The notes below the pieces were generated by a model. It was not told the DNA's origin, made no database searches, and saw nothing but the letters and a program-made list of their open reading frames with translations. From a virus, in the IMG/VR virus record IMGVR_UViG_3300036398_004386, positions 1-29,886 of that record: a stretch of DNA of 29,886 nt; one strand, written 5' to 3'. Position numbers and translations under genes: made by a program. Position 1 is the first letter of the stretch. Every line of letters begins with the position of its first letter. Positions 1,352-29,554 of the stretch are shown one piece after another.

Positions 1352-3046
1352 CTAACTTGCTCCTGTTTCTGTTTCTGTTGTTGTTTCTTGCGGCTGCTCA
1401 ACCGGTGCGGCTTCAGGCGCCGGTGCGGCCTCTTGCGTAGGCTGTTGACCGAGAAGTTGCTGAACCTCCGGTGGAAGCGGCGCGACGCTTGAGGCCTGTG
1501 ACGCCTGGCGGATCGCCTCGATGACCTCAGGCGCGACCGCGCCGAGCATTCCCTCGGTGAGTTCAGGCGAGATGACGCCCTTCTCCATCATCAGACGCAG
1601 CGCGATCTCTTTTGGCGTCGGCGCGTCGGCCTCGGAGAACCCGTGCGTGCGGCGCCATGTGTCGAACGAGACCGCCATACGGTCGAAGCCAGAGTCAGCG
1701 TCAGCCGCACGGTCGTTACGCGTAGAGACCTGTGACGGGTCGTACCAGACGCAGATGCGATCAACGTCGGTCTCGTCAAAGCCGTTTGCGATGAGATACG
1801 GACGCAGATATACAACCGTCAGCGCGTCGGCGATGAGCAGCATCAGCGGCTCGATGTGCGCCTTGTATAGCGACTCGTCGATGTGAATCGCGTTGCTATA
1901 TTTAACGTTCGCCATTCCAGTGACGACATCCTTTGGAACGTCGAGTCCCTGAAGGATACGCTCGAGCACGCGGTCGGCGCGCTGCGCGAGCGCAGGGTCG
2001 AACGAGCGCTCGAACTTGAACTGCTTGATCTTGTCGCCAAGCTCCGCGGGTCCGCGGATGATCAACGGCACGACCGCACTGGCCGAGTCCTCGTCGCGGA
2101 TCGGTGTTGTCATCGCGTCGATGAGCTGATCCTCGAACTCGTCCTGTGCCTCCTCGGGCGTGAAGCCCGAGTCAAGGTCGTACTCGCTGTCGTTTGTCGG
2201 ATAGTTCGGATCAGGACCGGCGGCAACCGAAAGACCGTCGGGCAGGTATAGGGCACCAGCGTTCAGGCGGGAACGCGCCGTCGCACGGAACGTGCGATTC
2301 AACAGCAACAACTCGGCACAGAGGTCGAGCAGGCCGCGAAGTGACGAGTCTGCCTCATCTGTGAAGCGCGGATGCGCGCGCCAGATGCGACCAACAAATG
2401 CGTCAGACGCGAGAGGAATCGCGCCGCGACGTGTCGCGTCGTTACCGATCATCTCACGACGTGGAACGAGGATGTAGCGACCGCGGTTGTCAAGCGCGAC
2501 CTCGTCGATCGAGCGAATGTCCCACGACTCTGGAATCTGATGACCAGGACGCGCGGGAAGCTGCACGAGATAGCACTCGCCCGCGACCGAGATGTTCAGT
2601 GCGGCGTCGCGCAACATTCCAGCCTGACCGCCGTATGCGGAGCTGAGTCGATCGAGCGCGCGCTCGGCGGCTGACGCGAGACGCTGGTCAATTCGTGACG
2701 AGTTACGTACGGCAACCGGCATCTCGGCTGGATTCTCGACGACAGCGGCGTAGAGACGGATGCGCGAGACGACGGACGCAATGAGGTTGAACGCGTACTT
2801 GATCTCGCCGATCGCGTCGTAATACTCCCAGGCCTCCGCCTGCCACGCGGATGACATCGCGTCACGACGCATCTTGAAGCGCTCGGCCTCTCCCTTGTCG
2901 TCAATGCGAACACGCGCGGCGGCGGCAACGAGCGAGCGCGGAGCTGAATACGAGGCGGACACGGCCGCGACGGCGCCGGAGATGGGAATAGGCAAAGCGG
3001 AGCGCTGCGTCACCGCTGGCGTCTCATTGCGCCGAAAAACTCCCAC
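1352..3046 (-). CDS. Portal protein
   Basis: A 564-residue protein of portal length, whose dodecameric ring forms the DNA gate at one head vertex. Recognisable actinophage portal features are the N-terminal YYDAIGEIKYAFNLIASVVS helix region, GECYLVQ near residue 155, the IWRAHPRFTDEADSSLRGLL stretch near 220-240, and a C-terminal Ala/Pro/Glu/Gln-rich tail. It starts with GTG at 3046, preceded by GAGGAG at good spacing. Downstream Dps is 2 nt away; upstream, after about 40 nt, are small late genes in the same direction. Terminase lies further upstream, as in most tailed phages. Confidence 0.88.
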   Translation of the reverse strand: MGVFRRNETPAVTQRSALPIPISGAVAAVSASYSAPRSLVAAAARVRIDDKGEAERFKMRRDAMSSAWQAEAWEYYDAIGEIKYAFNLIASVVSRIRLYAAVVENPAEMPVAVRNSSRIDQRLASAAERALDRLSSAYGGQAGMLRDAALNISVAGECYLVQLPARPGHQIPESWDIRSIDEVALDNRGRYILVPRREMIGNDATRRGAIPLASDAFVGRIWRAHPRFTDEADSSLRGLLDLCAELLLLNRTFRATARSRLNAGALYLPDGLSVAAGPDPNYPTNDSEYDLDSGFTPEEAQDEFEDQLIDAMTTPIRDEDSASAVVPLIIRGPAELGDKIKQFKFERSFDPALAQRADRVLERILQGLDVPKDVVTGMANVKYSNAIHIDESLYKAHIEPLMLLIADALTVVYLRPYLIANGFDETDVDRICVWYDPSQVSTRNDRAADADSGFDRMAVSFDTWRRTHGFSEADAPTPKEIALRLMMEKGVISPELTEGMLGAVAPEVIEAIRQASQASSVAPLPPEVQQLLGQQPTQEAAPAPEAAPVEQPQETTTETETGAS

Positions 3047-3375: not shown

Positions 3376-3758
3376 GACGGATCCTGCTCGGACATCACGG
3401 TTCGGTACGGATTCCAGCTTCGCAGGCGACTGCCGCAGCCACAGTTTGGATCATGCTCAACGATGACAAGCTTTCCGGACTCGGAGATCAGGCGCTTCTG
3501 CTCGGAGTTCTTGCGTGGCCAGCTGAGCGAGTCACGGTCATAGCGCTCGCGGAAGATCAAGACCGGACCCGCGTCCGCGTCGGCGGCGATGAGCAGGTGC
3601 TGATCCGTGAGCACCACCCGGACCTTGTCAACCGCGCGGCCGAAGGCACGTGTATACGTATTCAGCTCTGACGCGGCGAGCGCCGCCGCAACATCGGTCG
3701 CGGGTACAACCCGAACACGGGCGGGAAAGAGGTCATACAAGATCTTTGCGGGCGTCAT
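3372..3758 (-). CDS. Conserved late hypothetical protein (CGCGSRLRSWNPY motif)
   Basis: A 128-residue protein. The C-terminal third carries a Cys-rich motif, NCGCGSRLRSWNPY, that I recall from hypothetical proteins near portal genes in other actinophages. The N-terminal part (YDLFPARVRVVPATDVAAAL, then RAVDKVRVVLTDQHLLIAADADAGPVLIF) reads as a compact alpha/beta domain. Both ends overlap neighbours by 4 nt (ATGA), so it is the middle gene of a tightly coupled three-gene set upstream of portal. A structural or head-completion role would fit the location; no function can be assigned from the sequence. Confidence 0.6.
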   Translation of the reverse strand: MTPAKILYDLFPARVRVVPATDVAAALAASELNTYTRAFGRAVDKVRVVLTDQHLLIAADADAGPVLIFRERYDRDSLSWPRKNSEQKRLISESGKLVIVEHDPNCGCGSRLRSWNPYRTVMSEQDPS

Positions 3759-4297
3759 CGCAGCCTCACCCGGCGGTACATCGCGCGGTACGTGACACCG
3801 GCGGCCTCGGCGAGCTCTGGAATCGAGGCGCCGCTCGAGTAGAGCTCACGGGTCAGTCGGGTCAGGTTCTCGTTTGCGATCCTCGCTGGATTTCCAGGAC
3901 TTGTTCGAGGACGGTGCCGTCGAGCGAGCGGCGCGAGCTCTGCGATCCGTGAGACGACGTCCGGTGAGAGTCCAACGCGGCGGCGGCGGGGAGCCGAGAA
4001 CGGACGGACAGGACGAGCACCTGCGTCGGCCGGTGACGACCGCGGATGCGGAGACGGAACCGACGGAGATATGAAAGTGCTTTTTTCCGCGGTTGCCGTA
4101 GGTAATGAGTTGATCCAGACCCTGATCGTCGTTCGAGGACGAGGAGGATCAAACGCCGATGCGAGAGAGGAGAGGGACCAGCCTGCGGTGTACAGCGCGT
4201 GCAGGCGCGCGTTGCGCTCGGGCACGGGCAGGGTACGGAGCAACGAAACCTCGGACACTGGAAGCTCCGCGCTTCGTGCCGCTCTCCTCTTTGTCAT
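3755..4297 (-). CDS. Protein with two helix-turn-helix segments
   Basis: A 180-residue basic protein. An HTH-like segment lies near residues 30-60 (LYTAGWSLSSLASAF) and a second near 140-178 (LTRELYSSGASIPELAEAAG, then VTYRAMYRRVRL), separated by a Pro/Arg/Ser-rich linker. It is therefore probably a DNA-binding protein. It is the first gene after the 708-bp repeat-rich non-coding zone and precedes portal. A role in packaging-site recognition (small-terminase-like) or in control of the late operon is inference from position. No Shine-Dalgarno precedes the ATG; a TACGAT hexamer ends 7 nt upstream, so a leaderless transcript is possible. Confidence 0.6.
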   Translation of the reverse strand: MTKRRAARSAELPVSEVSLLRTLPVPERNARLHALYTAGWSLSSLASAFDPPRPRTTIRVWINSLPTATAEKSTFISPSVPSPHPRSSPADAGARPVRPFSAPRRRRVGLSPDVVSRIAELAPLARRHRPRTSPGNPARIANENLTRLTRELYSSGASIPELAEAAGVTYRAMYRRVRLR

Positions 4298-4489
4298 GGC
4301 TGCATCGTATCACTCCGCGGCTGTGTACATCGGCGCGGCGGAAGATTTTTGTACAGAAGGAGAAGTTGTACTATAAGGTAACTTGCTTGGGCGCGTCAGA
4401 AGCCAGCGGTTATAGCGGGGCCGTCACGCAAGTGTTTCGATGAACTTTTTCGGCAGGCCGGCACGCGTTCGTGCACGCGGCGTGCATCG

Positions 4490-4797
4490 GCGTGATGGTC
4501 ATCAATGGACCATTGTCAATGCGTGCACAAATGCGTGTGAGCACACGCGTGATGGCAGGCGTGATGGACAACGATGTGGACACTTTTCGAAGTGTCAGAA
4601 AGCGTTTGAGTGCACGTGGCAGTGGTGCCTGTGCCAGCGCCTGTGCGCTGAAGCGTGCGTGACGTCTGTGTAAGTACATCAGTCACTTTCAGTTGTCAGC
4701 GCTTCGACGATGTCTGATGAAGCACAGGCAGTCAGGCTGTTCGTGGTTTCTCAAGAAGTGCCAATGGCGATGTGGCTGTTTGACCTATGCGTGATGG
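4490..4797 (+). repeat. Four copies of GCGTGATGG
   Basis: Exact 9-mers start at 4490, 4547, 4559 and 4789. The middle two are 12 nt apart, so they form a tandem pair. All lie in the same orientation inside the non-coding zone. Confidence 0.75.
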
Positions 4798-5003
4798 ACC
4801 ACCAGGTGACTGATGGCTTGTTGAGAAACACGAGTGACTGAAGATGTGCGTGGTTCTAGAGAAGCGCCACTGACGCGAACGTCGATGTCGACGTCGATGA
4901 ACGCCGGTCACGAGAAGATCTCCGCATGTGCAAGCGTGCTCGCGAGAGATGCACCCGCATCACAATCTGACCACCGCATCAGTCGCGGTTTCTGAAGAAG
5001 TCG
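4741..5003 (+). repeat. Three palindromic TTCT-NN-AGAA blocks plus an inverted copy
   Basis: Blocks reading GTGGTTTCTCAAGAAGTGCC, GTGGTTCTAGAGAAGCGCCA and GCGGTTTCTGAAGAAGTCG start at about 4743, 4850 and 4985. A related inverted word (TTGAGAAACACGA, 4821-4833) faces TCGTGGTTTCTCAA at 4741-4754. The symmetric cores suggest a dimeric protein binding site. Confidence 0.6.
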
Positions 5004-5005
5004 TG

Positions 5006-5335
5006 TCAGGCGTCGATGTGAACGATGACGTTGGGATCACCCGCAAACAGCGCGGTGAATGTCTCCGCATCGATGATGCCGGTGCTGGTGAGCTGCACCG
5101 CACTCTGAAAGCTGGCAACCGCGCTGACCGTATTGTCACCGTACCAACCGTCCTTGTCAGCCGTCGCCGCACGATAACCCAACTCCGCAAGGCGGCGTTG
5201 TACGTGGTGGATCGTGAGCGACTTTCGCTCGAACTGGTTCTTCACGACGCACCTCGACAAATACACGTTGTCTTGCGCGGCACCGCTTACCGCATGCTGC
5301 GCTTTTTCAAACTTTGGTTGACGAATGACGGCCAT
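5006..5335 (-). CDS. Peptidoglycan-binding domain protein
   Basis: A 109-residue protein. Residues about 40-95 match a PG_binding_1 fold: LTIHHVQRRLAELGY, then DGWYGDNTVSAVASFQ, then TGIIDAETFTALF, the usual three-helix repeat with the G-x-x-D/G-x-x-T-x-x-A-V-x-x-F-Q signature. There is no catalytic domain and no signal peptide. It starts 9 nt after the terminase stop, so it is probably co-transcribed. Such stand-alone modules may be virion-associated or act with an endolysin; the role here is unproven. The wall-hydrolase-like protein at 26915-27751 carries a second, more diverged domain of this type. Confidence 0.8.
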   Translation of the reverse strand: MAVIRQPKFEKAQHAVSGAAQDNVYLSRCVVKNQFERKSLTIHHVQRRLAELGYRAATADKDGWYGDNTVSAVASFQSAVQLTSTGIIDAETFTALFAGDPNVIVHIDA

Positions 5336-5344
5336 ACAGAAATA

Positions 5345-6766
5345 CTATCCGCGTGGAGTGAAGACACGCCCGCCGCGTCCACCACCATTGCCACCGCGGA
5401 ATGCTGGCAGACGTCGAGCCGCGACTGAACGCGCCGTGATGTTCCCGCCGACGAAGCCCGCAGGTGGTTTGATAAGCAGTGCCGTAAGCGCGTGCACGAG
5501 CGCATCGACACGGTCAGGCGACTTGCCTTCGCCGGGAATCCAGGCGCACATTTGCGATTCGAGGTCGGTCAGGTAGTTGACGTGGTGAACACGGTTCTGC
5601 TCATACGCCAATGTCACCGGCTCCGCACGCAACGCCTTGCCGACCTTCGAGTGAACCTCGAGGACACGCACGTTGGGGTCAATGGTGTTGATCGCGTTGC
5701 GGACTAGAGCGCCGCCCTGGTTGACTTCGGCGACAACAGGACAACCGTACTTGCGCGCCATCGCCACAACGGCGTTCGCCCAGACGTCAGGCGATCCATG
5801 AACAGTTGCGTCTTCGAGGACCCAGGCGTGGCGCTTGTATAGGTCACGCTCGCCTGTGGATGCGCACACCACGATGCCGCATTCGTCACGCGGGTTCTCC
5901 GCGACTGACGGGTCGACACCGATGACGCGCAGCGGCGTGGCGTGCGGAAAGACAGACTGACGGCTGCGCTCGAGAAGTTCAAGCGTCCACAGCGCTCCTT
6001 CGACATCGCTCAACATCTCGCCGTATAGCTCCTGCGCCGCAAGGCGTGTGCCTGCGTAGACGCCTGTGATCGCCTCGAGGTAGGCCTCGGACAGGTTGCC
6101 GGCGTTGTCGAGTGTGGACCCGCGAGAGATGACAACGCGCCCGGTGCGATCAGCCTCGGCGAGGAGTGAGTACAAGACAGGCACACGCTTGGGCGTGGTT
6201 GTCGCGATGATCTGCGGCGCTGCGCCAAGTCGCGTGCCGACTCGAAGGTTGTCCCACGATGTCATGCCAGCCGCGTCAGGCGACTGACGCCACGCCGCAA
6301 CCTCGTCCGCCCATGCGTAGTGAAACTGTGGGCCTCGAAGTGAGTCAGGCTCGTCTGCGGTGAAGCATGTTGCGGTGTTTCCGTTTGGCCACGTGAGACG
6401 TCGCTTCGAAGGCTCGTACAGTGGGCGCTCGCTCGGAGGCGTTACCGCAATGATGCCGGACTCGCCTTCAACGATGACGTCACGCACGTCGGCAGCGGTT
6501 CGAGCGACCAGTGCAAATCGAAGCTGTCCCTTGTCGGTGATCTTCGCTCTGTCACGCACCCATTCAGCGGCGCTGCGCGTCTTGCCTGCGCCTCGACCAG
6601 CGAGGTACAACCAGATCGCCCAGTCATCACCGGGCGGCGGGAGTTGTTCGGGGCGAGCCCAGGCCTTCCAGTCCCAGACCAGTTGATCCATATCGACTTC
6701 CGCGAGGACAGCCATGCGCTCGGCCTCGGGCAGGAGCGCGATCTGCTCCATCAAACTTTTTCCCAT
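5345..6766 (-). CDS. terL: Terminase large subunit
   Basis: A 473-residue packaging motor. The N-terminal ATPase has Walker A GRGAGKT (57-63), Walker B with the DE pair at 154-155 (YAWADEVAAW) and a coupling motif ATTTPK near 189-194. The C-terminal RNase H-like nuclease has acidic residues at D285 (VIGVDPSV), E347 (VVAEVN) and D418/D421 (SPDRVDALVHAL). The order and spacing resemble the Terminase_6/GTA-like group. A Gly/Arg-rich tail ends the protein. Two in-frame ATGs (6766, 6751) are possible; neither has a strong ribosome-binding site, and a TAAGAT box lies 9 nt before the first. A small gene precedes it by 34 nt and the peptidoglycan-binding gene follows. Confidence 0.93.
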   Translation of the reverse strand: MGKSLMEQIALLPEAERMAVLAEVDMDQLVWDWKAWARPEQLPPPGDDWAIWLYLAGRGAGKTRSAAEWVRDRAKITDKGQLRFALVARTAADVRDVIVEGESGIIAVTPPSERPLYEPSKRRLTWPNGNTATCFTADEPDSLRGPQFHYAWADEVAAWRQSPDAAGMTSWDNLRVGTRLGAAPQIIATTTPKRVPVLYSLLAEADRTGRVVISRGSTLDNAGNLSEAYLEAITGVYAGTRLAAQELYGEMLSDVEGALWTLELLERSRQSVFPHATPLRVIGVDPSVAENPRDECGIVVCASTGERDLYKRHAWVLEDATVHGSPDVWANAVVAMARKYGCPVVAEVNQGGALVRNAINTIDPNVRVLEVHSKVGKALRAEPVTLAYEQNRVHHVNYLTDLESQMCAWIPGEGKSPDRVDALVHALTALLIKPPAGFVGGNITARSVAARRLPAFRGGNGGGRGGRVFTPRG

Positions 6767-8043: not shown

Positions 8044-8597
8044 AGCGACCAATGCCCAAGCCCGCCATTCTCGAGAAGGTACCGTGCGACGCTGAGATTG
8101 CAATGCAAATCGAGAAGGGCGAACATGTCCCCGTACGGAGTGCCGCAAATCTCGTGAGTAACCTTCTTCCACGTCGAGTTGATCTGCAGCAGGCCGACGT
8201 CGTATGAACCATCGCGGTTTAGGGTCTTCACAGGTCGACCGGCCGCGTCGAATGTCGCATTGATCAGCCCAGGGTTGCACCGCGTCTCTCGCCAGGCGAT
8301 AAACGAGAACTTTCGCACAGGCTCGAGTCCGTATGAGCGAAACTTCTCTTCGAACTCAGGGCAACTCCTCGGGCGATGTCGTGGCGCTGTCTCAGGAACC
8401 GGTACGGCCTGGGCCTCGACCTTGGTCACAGGCTCTTCGACACCCGCAACCTCGAAGACAGCCTCGGGCTCAGCCGCGACGGTCAGCGTAGTCGTGGGCG
8501 CGGGCTCAGTGACTAGAGCGACGTCATCGGTCACGGGCATCGCAACGACCGCGATCGAGGTGAGCAGTCCGGCAACCAGCGCTACCCAGCGACGCAT
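8040..8597 (-). CDS. Exported lysozyme-like transglycosylase
   Basis: A 185-residue protein with an N-terminal hydrophobic segment (WVALVAGLLTSIAVVAM, about 4-20: signal or anchor), a Thr/Pro/Glu/Val-rich spacer (25-75) and a lysozyme-like domain. SFIAWRETRCNPG places the catalytic Glu at E104, and DVGLLQINSTW (about 133-143) is the family's second hallmark. Cys107, 151 and 166 could form a disulfide outside the cell. Expected reaction: cleavage of the MurNAc-GlcNAc glycan backbone. Its location among accessory genes, away from the holin, suggests a role in wall remodelling or entry as well as, or instead of, lysis (inference). The start overlaps the previous stop by 1 nt (TAATG). Confidence 0.82.
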   Translation of the reverse strand: MRRWVALVAGLLTSIAVVAMPVTDDVALVTEPAPTTTLTVAAEPEAVFEVAGVEEPVTKVEAQAVPVPETAPRHRPRSCPEFEEKFRSYGLEPVRKFSFIAWRETRCNPGLINATFDAAGRPVKTLNRDGSYDVGLLQINSTWKKVTHEICGTPYGDMFALLDLHCNLSVARYLLENGGLGHWSL

Positions 8598-10714: not shown

Positions 10715-11305
10715 TCATACAGGCCGGTGCTGGTTGAAAAGCGTAAACGGGGGACCGGAAGCCGCGTCGAGGCGCGCCGCAACAGTGAGGGCTGTCTTGA
10801 CCGCGATCCTCGCCTCGTTGATATCTTTTGTCCCATCGGGCAGCAGGGCGTGCAGCACGCCGACCGCAAAGTCACCACCTGTGCCCATCCCGTACAGGCC
10901 GAGCGCATCTCGAACCCACGAGTAATCTTCGCCGATGACGTAGATCGAACCATTGATAACTGTAAGAACCTGAGAACCTGACTCGGCCGCGCCTGTCTCC
11001 TGGTTGCGTCGATCTCCGTATCCATTCTTTTCGAAGCAGTCGCGGAGCGCCGGAACGAAGTCGCTTGTGATGAAGCGATCCAGCCGCGCGTCAACAAATG
11101 ACTGAGCGTTCGGTGGTCGGAAGACGTAGGCGAGAAGGTTGATCGCACGCACGTCGCCGGCGGCGCCGAGCAGATACTTCTTGTTTCGAGTAACCTTGCT
11201 TCCGGCCTTTGCGAGCGTGTATGTACGTCCGTACTCTTCGGAGATCTGAGAGTCTGAGCCGACCACGGCCCACGTTGGACCTTGGACGGCCGCGATGGTT
11301 GTCAC
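10715..11305 (-). CDS. HslV / proteasome beta-like N-terminal-nucleophile peptidase
   Basis: A 196-residue protein. After removal of Met1 it would expose Thr-Thr-Ile (MTTIAAVQG), like HslV's TTIVSV. Counting from that Thr as residue 1, Asp17 is exactly in place in VVGSDSQIS, and a Lys corresponding to K33 precedes V in AGSKVTRNKKYLLGAAG. The GAAGDVRA glycine loop, YGMGTGGDFAVGVLHALL (HslV: IGSGGPYAQAAARALL) and a late helix EARIAVKTALTVAARLDAAS match the fold order. Expected activity is threonine-type proteolysis in a self-compartmentalised ring. GTG 11305 follows GGAGG. It is the second gene after an HTH protein (15-nt gap) in one unit. No cognate HslU or Mpa is adjacent, so the unfoldase is unknown. 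Confidence 0.8.
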   Translation of the reverse strand: MTTIAAVQGPTWAVVGSDSQISEEYGRTYTLAKAGSKVTRNKKYLLGAAGDVRAINLLAYVFRPPNAQSFVDARLDRFITSDFVPALRDCFEKNGYGDRRNQETGAAESGSQVLTVINGSIYVIGEDYSWVRDALGLYGMGTGGDFAVGVLHALLPDGTKDINEARIAVKTALTVAARLDAASGPPFTLFNQHRPV

Positions 11306-12057: not shown

Positions 12058-12063
12058 GACTAT
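12058..12063 (-). promoter_or_regulatory. -10 box TATAGT overlapping the whiB stop
   Basis: The TAG inside TATAGT is the stop codon of whiB. The CTAAAG half of the array motif is not recognisable here. Confidence 0.45.
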
Positions 12064-12302
12064 AACACTACGTCCTTGATCTTCAGGTGCCCTCGACGGA
12101 TCTTGCGGCGCTGATTTGCCGTAAGACCTCCCCAAACCCCAACCTCGTCTCGAGGAATGGCGTACTCGCGGCAAGCCGCGAGGACCGGGCACGTCGCACA
12201 GATCTTTCGTGCGGACCGCACCTTGGTCTTTGATAGGTCATCGAAGAACAGATCACCGCGGCCTATGCAGGCCGCGTGATCCATCCACATCAACTCTCTC
12301 AT
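12060..12302 (-). CDS. whiB: WhiB-family iron-sulfur regulator
   Basis: An 80-residue protein with all family hallmarks: four cysteines C12, C35, C38 and C44 (Cx22Cx2Cx5C) that bind a [4Fe-4S] cluster, an aromatic-rich HAACIGRGDLFF start, GVWGG at 55-59, and a basic AT-hook-like C-terminus (QRRKIRRGHLK). WhiB proteins bind region 4 of the primary sigma factor and redirect transcription; phage versions can interfere with host WhiB control. ATG 12302 overlaps the preceding stop by 4 nt. It could act on the array promoters (inference). Confidence 0.93.
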   Translation of the reverse strand: MRELMWMDHAACIGRGDLFFDDLSKTKVRSARKICATCPVLAACREYAIPRDEVGVWGGLTANQRRKIRRGHLKIKDVVL

Positions 12303-19929: not shown

Positions 19930-21759
19930 CTACCGCGCTGAGGCCTTGGCCGTGCCCGTCAGCGCTTGCGCCGCTACCTTGCCGATGTTCTGAGACAGTG
20001 ACGTCGCATCGACGCCCGTCATTCGTGCATTGACGTAGCCCGCGCCCGTTCCGGAGAGGATGCGCTGCGCTTCATAACCGCGATTGTCGAAGTCAATCCA
20101 CGTCACCGCAACACCTGCCTTTGCACACTCATTCAGCCAGCGCTTTGCCGCCTGCGTCTCGGCATGAACGTAGCATCCATCACTCACGACGACGAGCATG
20201 CGTGCGCCATCGCCTGAGAGAAGATTGAGCGAGCCATCAAGCGCTTTGAATGCTTGGTCGAATCGTTCAGTTCCATCAGCCGCAGAGTACACATTGACTT
20301 TGTCGAGGTGTTGTCCTGGCTTGAGTACCGGGAACACACCTTGGCCGTAGTAGACCATCGCCGCACGTCCCTGGACGCGGCGTACCGCTTCGCTGAGGAC
20401 CCATGCTGACACCGCCATCGGCTCCATCGCATCAGACATCGAACCGCTGATGTCGACCATCACGCCAATCGTGAGTGTTGGGTCATCAGTGTGCTTGCGC
20501 ACTGTGCGGCGCCAAGGTTCGACCTGAGTCATCACGCCCTTGGACTTGAGTGCTGCGCCTTGCACCATCGCACGAGTGCGCAGACGTCCAGGAGGAACGA
20601 TTGAATGAATCTCTGCCTCGTCACGATCGCGATACTTTGCCTTCTCAAGAAGAGCGGCAAGCTTGACCGCTGCCGCACGTTCATCAGGACGCGGTGCACG
20701 TTCTTCAATGAGGCGACTGCTCGTTCGATGATCGGCCACCGGACCAGTACCTTTGCCGAAGACGTCACCTGCAGTTGTCTTGTTCTCGCGCTCACGCGTT
20801 GACTTGCTCGAACGAGACGAGACAGTGTCACGCCATTCTTCTGTCGTCTGCTGATCTGCCGCGTCATCGTTTGCGCCAATCGTTGAATCATCGACAGCTT
20901 CGCGCAAGGCTTCCATCACTTCTTCGATGATGTCATCACCGCTTGTGCCATCGCCACTTCCGCCTTCGCCACCTGTGCTGCCATACTCGCTTGACTCGTC
21001 GTCTTCTTCGCCGGCTTCACCAGCGGCTTCTTCGACAAGTCGTGACCACTCGCGTGCGATGACATAGAGCTCCTCGACGTTCGTAGTTGCCTGTGCTTGA
21101 ATCCACAGTTGGCGCAAGCTGTCAAACAGTTCGAGACTGATCTTCTTCGTGATGACCGCCTCGATGCCGGCAACGTCAGTGCCCTTGATTGAACCTGCAT
21201 CGACTCGCGCGGACGTGAGTGCAAGCACCTTGGCTGCCGCACGCGTTGGCGACTCAGAGAGCGGCGCTTCTTCGAGGTCACGCATGACCAGGTCAAGAAC
21301 ACACGCGCGGAGGAAGCACGCATTGTCTGGGTAGATGTTGAGGCCCAGACTTTCGATGCGACCCTCTTCGAGAAGAATCAGTGCCTCGAACTCTTTGCGC
21401 GTGAGTGTTTCCGCTGCCTTGGGAATGTCCCAGTGCGAGAACCTTGCGTGCATCGCCTCGTGAAAGATGAGACCTGTCGCACGCGGCCACTTGAATTGCT
21501 CAGTGCGCTCGAGGAGGTCGCCCACCATGTCTGGCTTCGTGCCCTTGCCGAAGGCGAGTTCAGCGTTGACCTCGACCTCCGCAGTTGTCGGCGCGAAGCA
21601 TGCCGGCGCACCGGATGATGTCGCATCGGCGACGTACGCCGCGATGTCGCCGCGTCCCGCGAAGTAGTTCGTCAGCGCGCCTACCGAGGCGCCTACCTTG
21701 AGCCATTCCGCTGGCGTCGAACCCGAGCGGGTCGTCTTGTTGTAATCAATGTGTCCCAT
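19930..21759 (-). CDS. HExxH metallopeptidase-like + VWA protein (CobT-like), 609 aa
   Basis: The N-terminal region has IFHEAMHARFSHW, giving HExxH (H100, E101, H104), with EEGRIES at 131-137 as a possible third ligand. An acidic Gly/Ser linker spans about 245-305. A C-terminal von Willebrand A domain has the MIDAS motif DxSxS (D436, S438, S440 in VMVDISGSM) and VVVSDGCY further on. The layout recalls CobT of cobaltochelatase and VWA partners of MoxR AAA+ ATPases. ATG 21759 follows AAGGGACAAC. The gene immediately upstream is the matching AAA+ ATPase. Likely function: substrate recruitment or remodelling with that ATPase; whether the HExxH is catalytic is unknown. Confidence 0.8.
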   Translation of the reverse strand: MGHIDYNKTTRSGSTPAEWLKVGASVGALTNYFAGRGDIAAYVADATSSGAPACFAPTTAEVEVNAELAFGKGTKPDMVGDLLERTEQFKWPRATGLIFHEAMHARFSHWDIPKAAETLTRKEFEALILLEEGRIESLGLNIYPDNACFLRACVLDLVMRDLEEAPLSESPTRAAAKVLALTSARVDAGSIKGTDVAGIEAVITKKISLELFDSLRQLWIQAQATTNVEELYVIAREWSRLVEEAAGEAGEEDDESSEYGSTGGEGGSGDGTSGDDIIEEVMEALREAVDDSTIGANDDAADQQTTEEWRDTVSSRSSKSTRERENKTTAGDVFGKGTGPVADHRTSSRLIEERAPRPDERAAAVKLAALLEKAKYRDRDEAEIHSIVPPGRLRTRAMVQGAALKSKGVMTQVEPWRRTVRKHTDDPTLTIGVMVDISGSMSDAMEPMAVSAWVLSEAVRRVQGRAAMVYYGQGVFPVLKPGQHLDKVNVYSAADGTERFDQAFKALDGSLNLLSGDGARMLVVVSDGCYVHAETQAAKRWLNECAKAGVAVTWIDFDNRGYEAQRILSGTGAGYVNARMTGVDATSLSQNIGKVAAQALTGTAKASAR

Positions 21760-21895: not shown

Positions 21896-22993
21896 TCAGA
21901 TCTTCGCGGGTCGACACTCTTGTCCGAAGACTCGAGTGAAGACATCTGCCACAACCGGCCTGTCAATCTCGGGCGACGCCGCGAGAAGGTTGGCGATTGC
22001 GAAGTTTGTACCGAAGACTTTCTCAAGGTCACGGAAGGCGAGCAGCTCGCGCATCTGTGGTGCCCACGACGTCTCGGCTGACATCTGCTTCTTCGCCAGG
22101 TTCTGCGCCGCGGTGACCAGCGGAACCGGGACGCCAAGCTTTCGAGCCAGCGACCAGTCAGTGGTCATTTCCGCCTGGACAGTGAAGCGAGAGAGAAGCG
22201 CCTCAGACAGTCGAACACCTGGTGCATTCGGGTTTGTCGCCGCGATGACGTAGAAGCCATCTTTTGCTTTGACAGTGCCGCGCTCAGGATTCGCAGTGAC
22301 AGTGTACTCACGTCGACCATCCATCAGACCGTAGACGATGCTGAGAACCTTCGGGTCGATGAGACCCACTTCGTCGATGAGGAGGACACCGCCGCGCTCT
22401 GCCGCCTTCAGCAGAGGACCATCTTCCCAGATGAATCCACCACTTGGCGTCTGCACGTATCCACCAACGAGGTCGGCGACTTCAGTGTCACCGGAACCGA
22501 GGACAGTGTAGAGACCGCCTGGCTCGTCGGTGAATGCTGCTTCGACCAGTGCAGTCTTTCCGCACCCAGGCGCACCATAGAGCAGAATGTAGCTGCTCAG
22601 GTCTCGCGCCTTTCGAAGGACCATGACGTCGTCATGCTCGCCCCAAGGACGTGAGTAGTAGCTTTCGCCATTCGGGCGAAGGTAACTCTTCTCACCTGTG
22701 AGTGCATCTGCTGACATCGTCTTGACCGGCTTCGGCGCCTTTGCTGTTCGTGGAGCCTTGAGCTTTCCCGCTGAATCGACCATTCCCATGAGAGACGCGG
22801 CTGCGTATGCATCGACGTTCTGCATGACTGTCTGAGCGAGAATTCTCGTCAGCCCCTTGTGCAGACCATCGTAATCAGCGGGTGGTGTTGCGACCGCGGC
22901 TGCCGGAGTCGCTGGCGTTGATGCGCCTGGGACCGCGGCTCCCGCGGCGGGCGTAGGTAGTCCTGTTGCCCATGTAGTTTCTGAGGTTGTCAT
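21896..22993 (-). CDS. MoxR/CobS-type AAA+ ATPase (365 aa)
   Basis: An Ala/Pro-rich N-terminus (1-40) precedes an AAA+ core: Walker A GAPGCGKT (140-147), a pore-loop-like GGYVQTPSGGFIWEDGPL, Walker B VLLIDE (203-208), sensor 1 in VIAATNPNAPG (N254) and an arginine finger in ALLSRF (R269). The insert pattern fits the AAA_5 MoxR/CobS group, hexameric ATPases that remodel partners bound by a VWA protein. ATG 22993 has GAAAGGACAG. The VWA gene follows after a terminator and a second promoter, so the pair is adjacent but separately transcribed, perhaps to set different doses. Confidence 0.9.
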   Translation of the reverse strand: MTTSETTWATGLPTPAAGAAVPGASTPATPAAAVATPPADYDGLHKGLTRILAQTVMQNVDAYAAASLMGMVDSAGKLKAPRTAKAPKPVKTMSADALTGEKSYLRPNGESYYSRPWGEHDDVMVLRKARDLSSYILLYGAPGCGKTALVEAAFTDEPGGLYTVLGSGDTEVADLVGGYVQTPSGGFIWEDGPLLKAAERGGVLLIDEVGLIDPKVLSIVYGLMDGRREYTVTANPERGTVKAKDGFYVIAATNPNAPGVRLSEALLSRFTVQAEMTTDWSLARKLGVPVPLVTAAQNLAKKQMSAETSWAPQMRELLAFRDLEKVFGTNFAIANLLAASPEIDRPVVADVFTRVFGQECRPAKI

Positions 22994-27904: not shown

Positions 27905-28825
27905 TCACTCTCCCTCGACCGCCTCTGCGTCAATGATGTCGTCATGTGTCGTCTCCTCAACCTTGCCCGTCTCGCTCGTCAGCTCCGCGAGCCTGCCTGC
28001 AACCTCGATCGCGCCCGCCGCAAGCCTGGACAGACGTTCGGAGACGATATCAGAGGCGGACCGTGAATCGGTAACATTGAGACTTGCGTCCAGCTCGATC
28101 CCGCCGCGCACGCCGGCACGGTCGAGGATCTCCGTCGACGCCTTCAGCTTCACAGGCTCGGACGTGCCGTTGAGCATGAGATCTTCAAGTACATCGACGG
28201 CGTATGGCGCGGCCTGCGTCAACTTTGCACGTGCTCGGGCGACGTCCTCGCCGGGCTGACGCTTCACGCTCGAGAGATGTACTCGACACAGGCCGTCGTC
28301 CTTCGGCCGTCCCGATGACCACAGCAGACAGCGCAGTCCGTCCTCCTTGACGTGCCGGCAGCGATGTGGAAGTGAAAGTGGCTGCCGTCGAGGAGAGCTT
28401 GGGCCGCCGGCCTCCTGCTCCTTCAGATAGGAGCGTGTCGCGCCGACGACCCACGGCGGAACGAGATAGTCAGCCGAGCTCTCCGCGAGGAGGTCGAGGC
28501 CTGTGAGGTAGTCGGAGTTGTTGATCGTCGGATCAACCAGGATCGAGCGCTTCTCGGCGATCGAGATCAGTCGCCGTCCCTTCTCCATCTCCTGTGACCG
28601 AGCCATGATGAGACCCGTCGGAGTACCGTTCTGTGCGTAGACCGGGATCCAGGTCATCTTCGCCGCACGCAGGATGCGGCGGTTCTCGAAGTTGTCCTGG
28701 CAGACACCGCGCTCAACCTCATCGATTCCAAGATCGCTGAGGATGGGCCGGATGTTCAGCTCGGCGTCGATGACCGGCGGCGAGGACTCGTCGCGATCGT
28801 CAGATGGCGCGGGAACTAATGACAT
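27905..28825 (-). CDS. Terminase small-subunit-like protein (306 aa)
   Basis: A central zinc-knuckle-like motif (CRHVKEDGLRCLLW, then GLCRVHL, about 155-185) precedes a helical region: AKLTQAAPYAVDVLEDLMLN, then SEPVKLKASTEILDRAGVRG. In actinophages a C/H knuckle followed by VxLKAxxxILDRAG is characteristic of proteins annotated as small terminase subunits. The N-terminal half and the acidic C-terminus are not recognised. ATG 28825 has AGAGAGAAG. It lies 21 kb from the large terminase, and the HTH protein at 3755-4297 is a rival candidate for the same role. Confidence 0.5.
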   Translation of the reverse strand: MSLVPAPSDDRDESSPPVIDAELNIRPILSDLGIDEVERGVCQDNFENRRILRAAKMTWIPVYAQNGTPTGLIMARSQEMEKGRRLISIAEKRSILVDPTINNSDYLTGLDLLAESSADYLVPPWVVGATRSYLKEQEAGGPSSPRRQPLSLPHRCRHVKEDGLRCLLWSSGRPKDDGLCRVHLSSVKRQPGEDVARARAKLTQAAPYAVDVLEDLMLNGTSEPVKLKASTEILDRAGVRGGIELDASLNVTDSRSASDIVSERLSRLAAGAIEVAGRLAELTSETGKVEETTHDDIIDAEAVEGE

Positions 28826-28851
28826 GCAAAAGAACTTCTCTCTGTCAACGA

Positions 28852-28894
28852 GAGCCCGCCGGGCAAGGGGAGAGAGGCGGGCACCGGCGGGCTC
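28852..28894 (-). terminator. 11-bp hairpin after the Pro/Lys-rich gene
   Basis: GAGCCCGCCGG/CCGGCGGGCTC, perfect, 21-nt loop, no U-tract. It may attenuate transcription into the terminase-like gene. Confidence 0.65.
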
Positions 28895-28907
28895 CCGAAG
28901 ACGTCGC

Positions 28908-29479: not shown

Positions 29480-29554
29480 TGGAGCCCTCGGTCAGGATTG
29501 AACTGACGACCTACCGCTTACAAGGCGGTTGCTCTACCACTGAGCTACAAGGGC
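29480..29554 (-). tRNA. tRNA-Thr (UGU anticodon)
   Basis: 75 nt including an encoded CCA. Acceptor GCCCTTG/CGAGGGC pairs with one G-U. The D-arm contains GTAGCTCAGTGGTAGAGC; the anticodon stem ACCGC/GCGGT encloses CTTGTAA with anticodon TGT; the T-arm contains the TTCAATC loop. It reads ACA codons, which should be rare in a GC-rich host, so it may supplement the phage's own codon use. Confidence 0.93.

Follow-up and report, generated by a model that had tools for sequence, protein, structure and literature searches.

A non-coding gap of 708 bp separates the terminase block from the portal operon in the 29,886-nucleotide stretch of DNA from an uncultured phage analysed here (hereafter the window), and within it lies a conserved element of about 70 bp which, judging by sequence comparison, is probably the terminase cut site at which a long direct terminal repeat stops. 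T5 and SPO1 are long-direct-terminal-repeat phages, in which fixed cuts give long terminal repeats, and the likeness to them concerns this scheme. Terminase cut sites are a known kind of site in long-repeat phages, and the motif appears to be undescribed in this group: no description of the element was found in the literature searched, subscription journals being largely outside its scope. The gap and its neighbouring genes are laid out as follows.

Positions 1352–3046, minus strand: portal protein (phrog_776, E = 3.4e-104).
Positions 3755–4297, minus strand: double helix-turn-helix (HTH) protein of 180 aa, encoded at the head of the portal operon (AlphaFold model).
Positions 4298–5005, minus strand: non-coding gap of 708 bp, between the peptidoglycan-binding gene that ends the block of the terminase large subunit (TerL) and the HTH-p128-p95-portal operon.
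Positions 5006–5335, minus strand: peptidoglycan-binding (PGB) domain protein (Pfam PF01471, E = 1.5e-14).
Positions 5345–6766, minus strand: terminase large subunit (Pfam Terminase_6N/6C).

The synteny TerL-PGB-gap-HTH-p128-p95-portal recurs in many viral contigs. The nearest named relative, Actinomycetia phage DSL-LC01 (OQ999401), is a metagenome-assembled genome (PMC10611076). Its TerL DNA is 77% identical to that of the window, the order TerL-PGB-gap-HTH-portal is the same, and its complete genome holds a single copy of the element (at about 46.86 kb), as does the window, as well as a homologue of the terminase small subunit (TerS) at about 20.7 kb. Unlike the window, the DSL-LC01 assembly was closed as a circle, hiding the ends, and its gap repeats are unrelated (CACGCAC-type). 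In the DSL-LC01 record the double-HTH gene at 47062–47670 is unannotated, and the coding sequences recorded at 46238–46735 and 46806–47402, over the gap and in another frame, look spurious.

The gap starts at 4298, just 5′ of the HTH start codon (4297, minus strand), and ends at 5005, just past the stop of the PGB gene. Protein coding within it was rejected, as a long frame common to relatives was not found, and an Rfam search gave no match in the gap. The initial annotation had singled out these 708 bp for four copies of one repeat, three palindromes and an inverted pair, all of which were found in place and beyond shuffle expectation.

Positions 4490–4797, plus strand: four GCGTGATGG copies (at 4490, 4547, 4559 and 4789), without conservation in relatives.
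Positions 4748–4999, no strand assigned: three TTCTNNAGAA palindromes (at 4748, 4854 and 4990), without conservation in relatives.

Any 9-mer occurred four times in 0.04% of 5000 dinucleotide shuffles of the gap, and three TTCTNNAGAA palindromes in none of 5000; inverted pairs include 4746–4758/4817–4829 and 4677–4686/4806–4815. The accompanying description of the genome as packed to single-nucleotide gene spacing was overstated, since its small-gene half has many short promoter-bearing gaps. A search for the repeats elsewhere in the window showed that GCGTGATGG is confined to the gap on that strand, with one reverse copy at 20457, and that TTCTNNAGAA has three further copies, at 8068, 20642 and 25085. 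Neither sequence was present in any of the other gaps examined in relatives, each of which carries its own, different low-complexity repeats, many of them tandem.

A replication origin or partition site with iteron-like repeats, also put forward at the outset, would account for repeats in excess of chance here and for the tandem repeats in the gaps of many relatives. It is nevertheless very improbable: the repeat units differ in every relative with near-random divergence, some relatives are almost spacerless, and replication or partition genes do not adjoin. GC skew in DSL-LC01 rises past the homologous position with a local dip only and no turn, which leaves an origin-like site unsupported, and nothing observed speaks for a partition site.

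The conserved signal lies near the structural-operon end of the gap and, unlike the repeats, is shared by about 60 distinct relatives.

Positions 4346–4414, minus strand: conserved ~70-bp element, proposed terminase cut site and right genome end (nhmmer E = 1.2e-11; alignment of 61 distinct copies).
Positions 4325–4371, no strand assigned: three GTAC palindromes (at 4325, 4351 and 4368), noted for GTAC enrichment before the HTH gene in relatives.
Positions 4407–5005, minus strand: fast-evolving, repeat-rich spacer with C > G on the sense strand, which under the model would be the last ~600 bp of virion DNA.

On its sense strand the element reads TATAACCGC/TGGCTTCTGACGCGCCCAAGCAAGTTACCTTATAGTACAACTTCTCCTTCTGTACA, the slash marking the predicted cut. 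Each locus has a single copy, apart from L029 and the loci identical to it (three identical loci), where a weak, partial second one is present. The element is retained in at least four gene arrangements, among them some with a distant TerL or with an additional gene beside the element. Gap and element precede the HTH gene in clade B, with TerL downstream; portal and TerL are tens of kilobases apart in clade C, where the element stays with HTH-p128-p95-portal; and genes of about 340 aa or more are inserted between element and HTH gene in L086, L087, L088, L126, L036 and L047. In most pairs of loci the element surpasses the neighbouring HTH gene in conservation; the spacer does not. Between L095 and L111 identity was 51% for the spacer, 91% for the element (97% ungapped) and 84% for the HTH gene; the corresponding values between L036 and L037 were 64%, 94% and 97%.

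Two other origins for such conservation were considered and rejected. A structured RNA is not indicated by the 61 copies, for which RNAalifold gave an energy of 0.0 on both strands, with no covariation and an inconsistent z-score. A host-derived element was set aside after a pattern scan of a bacterial and archaeal genome collection gave zero matches.

The spacer, by comparison, diverges nearly at random among relatives, some of which are almost without one, and the gaps of L061–L083 measure about 240 bp only. Such unconstrained evolution would fit a reading that treats the gap with its repeats as neutral filler and the element as a chance remnant. As a whole this is highly unlikely, the ~70-bp element having been kept at high identity over large divergence; conservation refutes it for the element, and for the repeats themselves it remains likely.

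A different role for the spacer is that of a C-rich, G-poor, rut-like Rho-dependent terminator, which would insulate the upstream operon at loci that have no intrinsic terminator. The sense strand of the spacer has C > G in 48 of 65 loci and falls within its own locus's top 5% in 40 of 65, and intrinsic terminators were found within 800 bp before the element in 30 of 62 loci, versus 16% of control windows; by simple scan the window's own spacer has none. However, several groups have G > C, the imbalance in the window itself is modest, and C-richness is not clearly greater in loci that lack an intrinsic terminator (P = 0.09). Composition of this sort is suggestive only, and a Rho terminator here is possible but doubtful. 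It would concern the spacer alone and is compatible with a cut site in the element, so that the likelihoods given to the two overlap.

Genome ends of cultured phages carry most weight for the cut-site reading. Five Microbacterium phages with related TerL were compared: Cece (OP068343), A3Wally (MZ150783), Zooman (OK040793), Pumpernickel (OK040790) and Big4 (ON637770). Direct terminal repeats that are 100% identical, ranging from 15.5 to 20.0 kb, are present in Cece (18079 bp), Pumpernickel (19963 bp), A3Wally (15503 bp) and Zooman (17079 bp), and the right genome ends of these four phages fall in one alignment column, inside the element. In the left copy the repeat ends (slash) as ...CCCGAAATAAGGGC/TTTCTTCTCAGCAGCCAAACG in Cece, ...AATATAAGGAT/TTTCCTCTCAGCGGCCAAACG in A3Wally, ...AAATAAGGAT/TTACCTCTCAGCGACCAAACG in Zooman and ...ATATAAGGAC/TTTGCAGAAATCGGCCAAACG in Pumpernickel. 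Record ends were taken as physical because this is the usual practice for this phage collection and because the repeats are exact, differ in length and share one aligned column.

As a blind test, a profile built from uncultured phages only was searched against the isolates. In Cece its single best match fell where the repeat ends (E = 7.8e-5 in 50 kb, next match 7.4), and so it did in A3Wally (E = 0.0088, next 3.1); the best match in Zooman was also at the repeat end, with an E value of 1.0 that is not significant alone. Several observations count against the cut-site reading. Pumpernickel gave no match to the profile, and its site was placed by alignment only; the Big4 end lies 10 bp earlier in the same sequence (the end alone was compared, not the whole repeat); and the repeat end of GodonK, a further end test, fails to match the element. 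The isolates are also distant from the window, with TerL DNA about 65–68% identical and extra genes between element and TerL.

The isolates share with the window the element (TCTC..GCCAAA..TTAAGGTAC..GTACA), a non-coding gap of roughly 0.6–0.7 kb before it, a double-HTH gene nearby, a TerS-endolysin block at the opposite end of the repeat and the HTH-p128-p95-portal set. They differ in that their repeat stops short of an inverted gene block and of TerL, whereas TerL of the window lies inside the predicted repeat; the HTH-portal operon of the window begins right after the predicted cut, unlike that of the isolates; and the HTH protein beside the site is of type II in the isolates and of type I in the window. 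In all five isolates a second type of double-HTH protein, its N-terminal domain resembling sigma-70 region 4, is encoded by the last gene, or nearly the last, ahead of the gap at the right end of the repeat.

The packaging site suggested by the initial annotation was thus right in kind and is the best supported of its three options, with two corrections: the signal is the element at 4346–4414 rather than the named repeats, and the support is for a right genome end, where the repeat stops, rather than for an initiation site. By homology, the ends of the packaged molecule of this phage would involve the following features.

Positions 4405–4406, minus strand: predicted right-end cut, between 4406 and 4405 (alignment with four isolates).
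Positions 27905–28825, minus strand: homologue of Cece gp1, which is annotated as terminase small subunit (tblastn 40% identity, E = 3e-53).
Positions 28850–28896, minus strand: long hairpin, its loop reading CCTCTC..CCC, immediately 5′ of the TerS homologue and near the proposed left end.

If this phage uses the site as the isolates appear to, its terminase would cut the head-to-tail concatemer within the element and so end the packaged molecule, whose left end would lie a full unit back, close to the TerS homologue at about 28.89 kb. From there to the element would extend a direct terminal repeat of about 24.5 kb, a length that follows from the predicted cut and from a TerS homologue placed at the left-end side as in the isolates, whose left ends are about 22 kb from TerL and about 62 bp 5′ of gp1. 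Next to the cut, the repeat would hold ~600 bp of unconstrained non-coding spacer at an operon boundary, and across the cut a leaderless promoter would start the HTH-portal operon.

The terminase genes are of the same kind as those of phages with direct terminal repeats, by TerL homology and by the TerS homologue with its 40% identity to Cece gp1, the identification of which as TerS rests on its annotation; the predicted structure of the homologue (pLDDT 57) was too low in confidence to use. The TerS homologue is followed by an endolysin-like gene, an order near the left end that is common to the window, Cece and DSL-LC01. A second copy of the element was not found near the TerS homologue, where a conserved hairpin stands instead: its stem of 13–17 bp varies in sequence among more than 20 relatives with pairing kept and loop conserved.

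Contig ends were also surveyed. Of 37 contigs of at least 14.8 kb, 11 break off no more than 1.4 kb upstream of the HTH gene, compared with 0 of 52 upstream of TerL. These ends fit a genome end, but their scatter over about 1 kb makes the variable spacer an equal explanation.

An alternative is that the element mainly controls the late structural operon, as a promoter or operator to which the HTH protein or some phage factor binds, and that its coincidence with genome ends is secondary. A pattern-only scan for the element returned 34 viral contigs, 32 of which have a double-HTH gene downstream; the element remains at the head of the HTH operon where TerL is elsewhere; across relatives, the 200 bp leading up to the HTH gene are 3.65-fold enriched in GTAC; and a sigma70-like match (CTGACG-18-TATAGT) lies within the element at 4399–4370. 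The HTH gene, however, has its own promoter sequence.

Positions 4304–4309, minus strand: −10 box TACGAT (TANNNT), 6 nt before the HTH start codon.

Of 58 distinct relatives, 47 have a TANNNT box that ends 5–8 nt ahead of the HTH start codon, against a background of about 1.4 per offset, and a leaderless promoter of the actinobacterial type is probable ahead of the gene, which would thus start a fresh operon just beyond the predicted cut. Besides this box, 6–7 nt from the start codon, the isolates tell against a mainly regulatory element. They keep it at the genome end without a co-directed HTH gene after it, so it is not merely that gene's promoter, and HTH copies within operons (Cece gp60) lack it. 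An element that is chiefly an operator is therefore unlikely. The proposal of a late operator was partly right, in that the −10 box marks the promoter of the HTH-portal operon.

The AlphaFold model of the HTH protein (pLDDT 85.5) shows a pair of helical HTH domains with a disordered linker between them. A Foldseek search of the PDB gave no match below E = 1 and so no informative solved structure, and comparison with PHROG gave weak TerS matches only. A role as small terminase is not supported, given a separate TerS homologue and a modelled fold that seems to be without a ring-forming domain. We also considered whether the double-HTH protein, whose gene lies close to the cut site in all clades surveyed, might be a new kind of dedicated packaging-site recognition factor acting with the distant TerS, the element being cut site and operator at once and coupling packaging to late transcription; this is a rather unlikely extension of the cut-site reading.

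Should the cut site be used as proposed, it would allow physical genome ends to be predicted from sequence in a large group of actinophages that are uncultured and mostly known from metagenomes. Circular or fragmentary assemblies of such phages hide these ends and would understate genome length by one long terminal repeat. The element also offers a concrete candidate terminase recognition motif for culturable Microbacterium phages.

Other features of the window were recorded in passing. A near-identical promoter-like motif, CTAAAGTCGATATAAT, occurs at 19 sites between 7417 and 25787 on the minus strand, ahead of many small genes, and a short leader usually separates it from the start codon; neither the gap nor the HTH-portal operon contains it. 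A large protein, whose DSL-LC01 counterpart is annotated as a cobalamin biosynthesis protein, lies beside an AAA_5 ATPase (19930–21759 and 21896–22993), forming a MoxR/VWA-like pair. The window also encodes a ferritin-like, Dps-type protein (861–1349), a weakly matching HslV-like protease (10715–11305), a WhiB regulator (12060–12302) and a tRNA-Thr (29480–29554).
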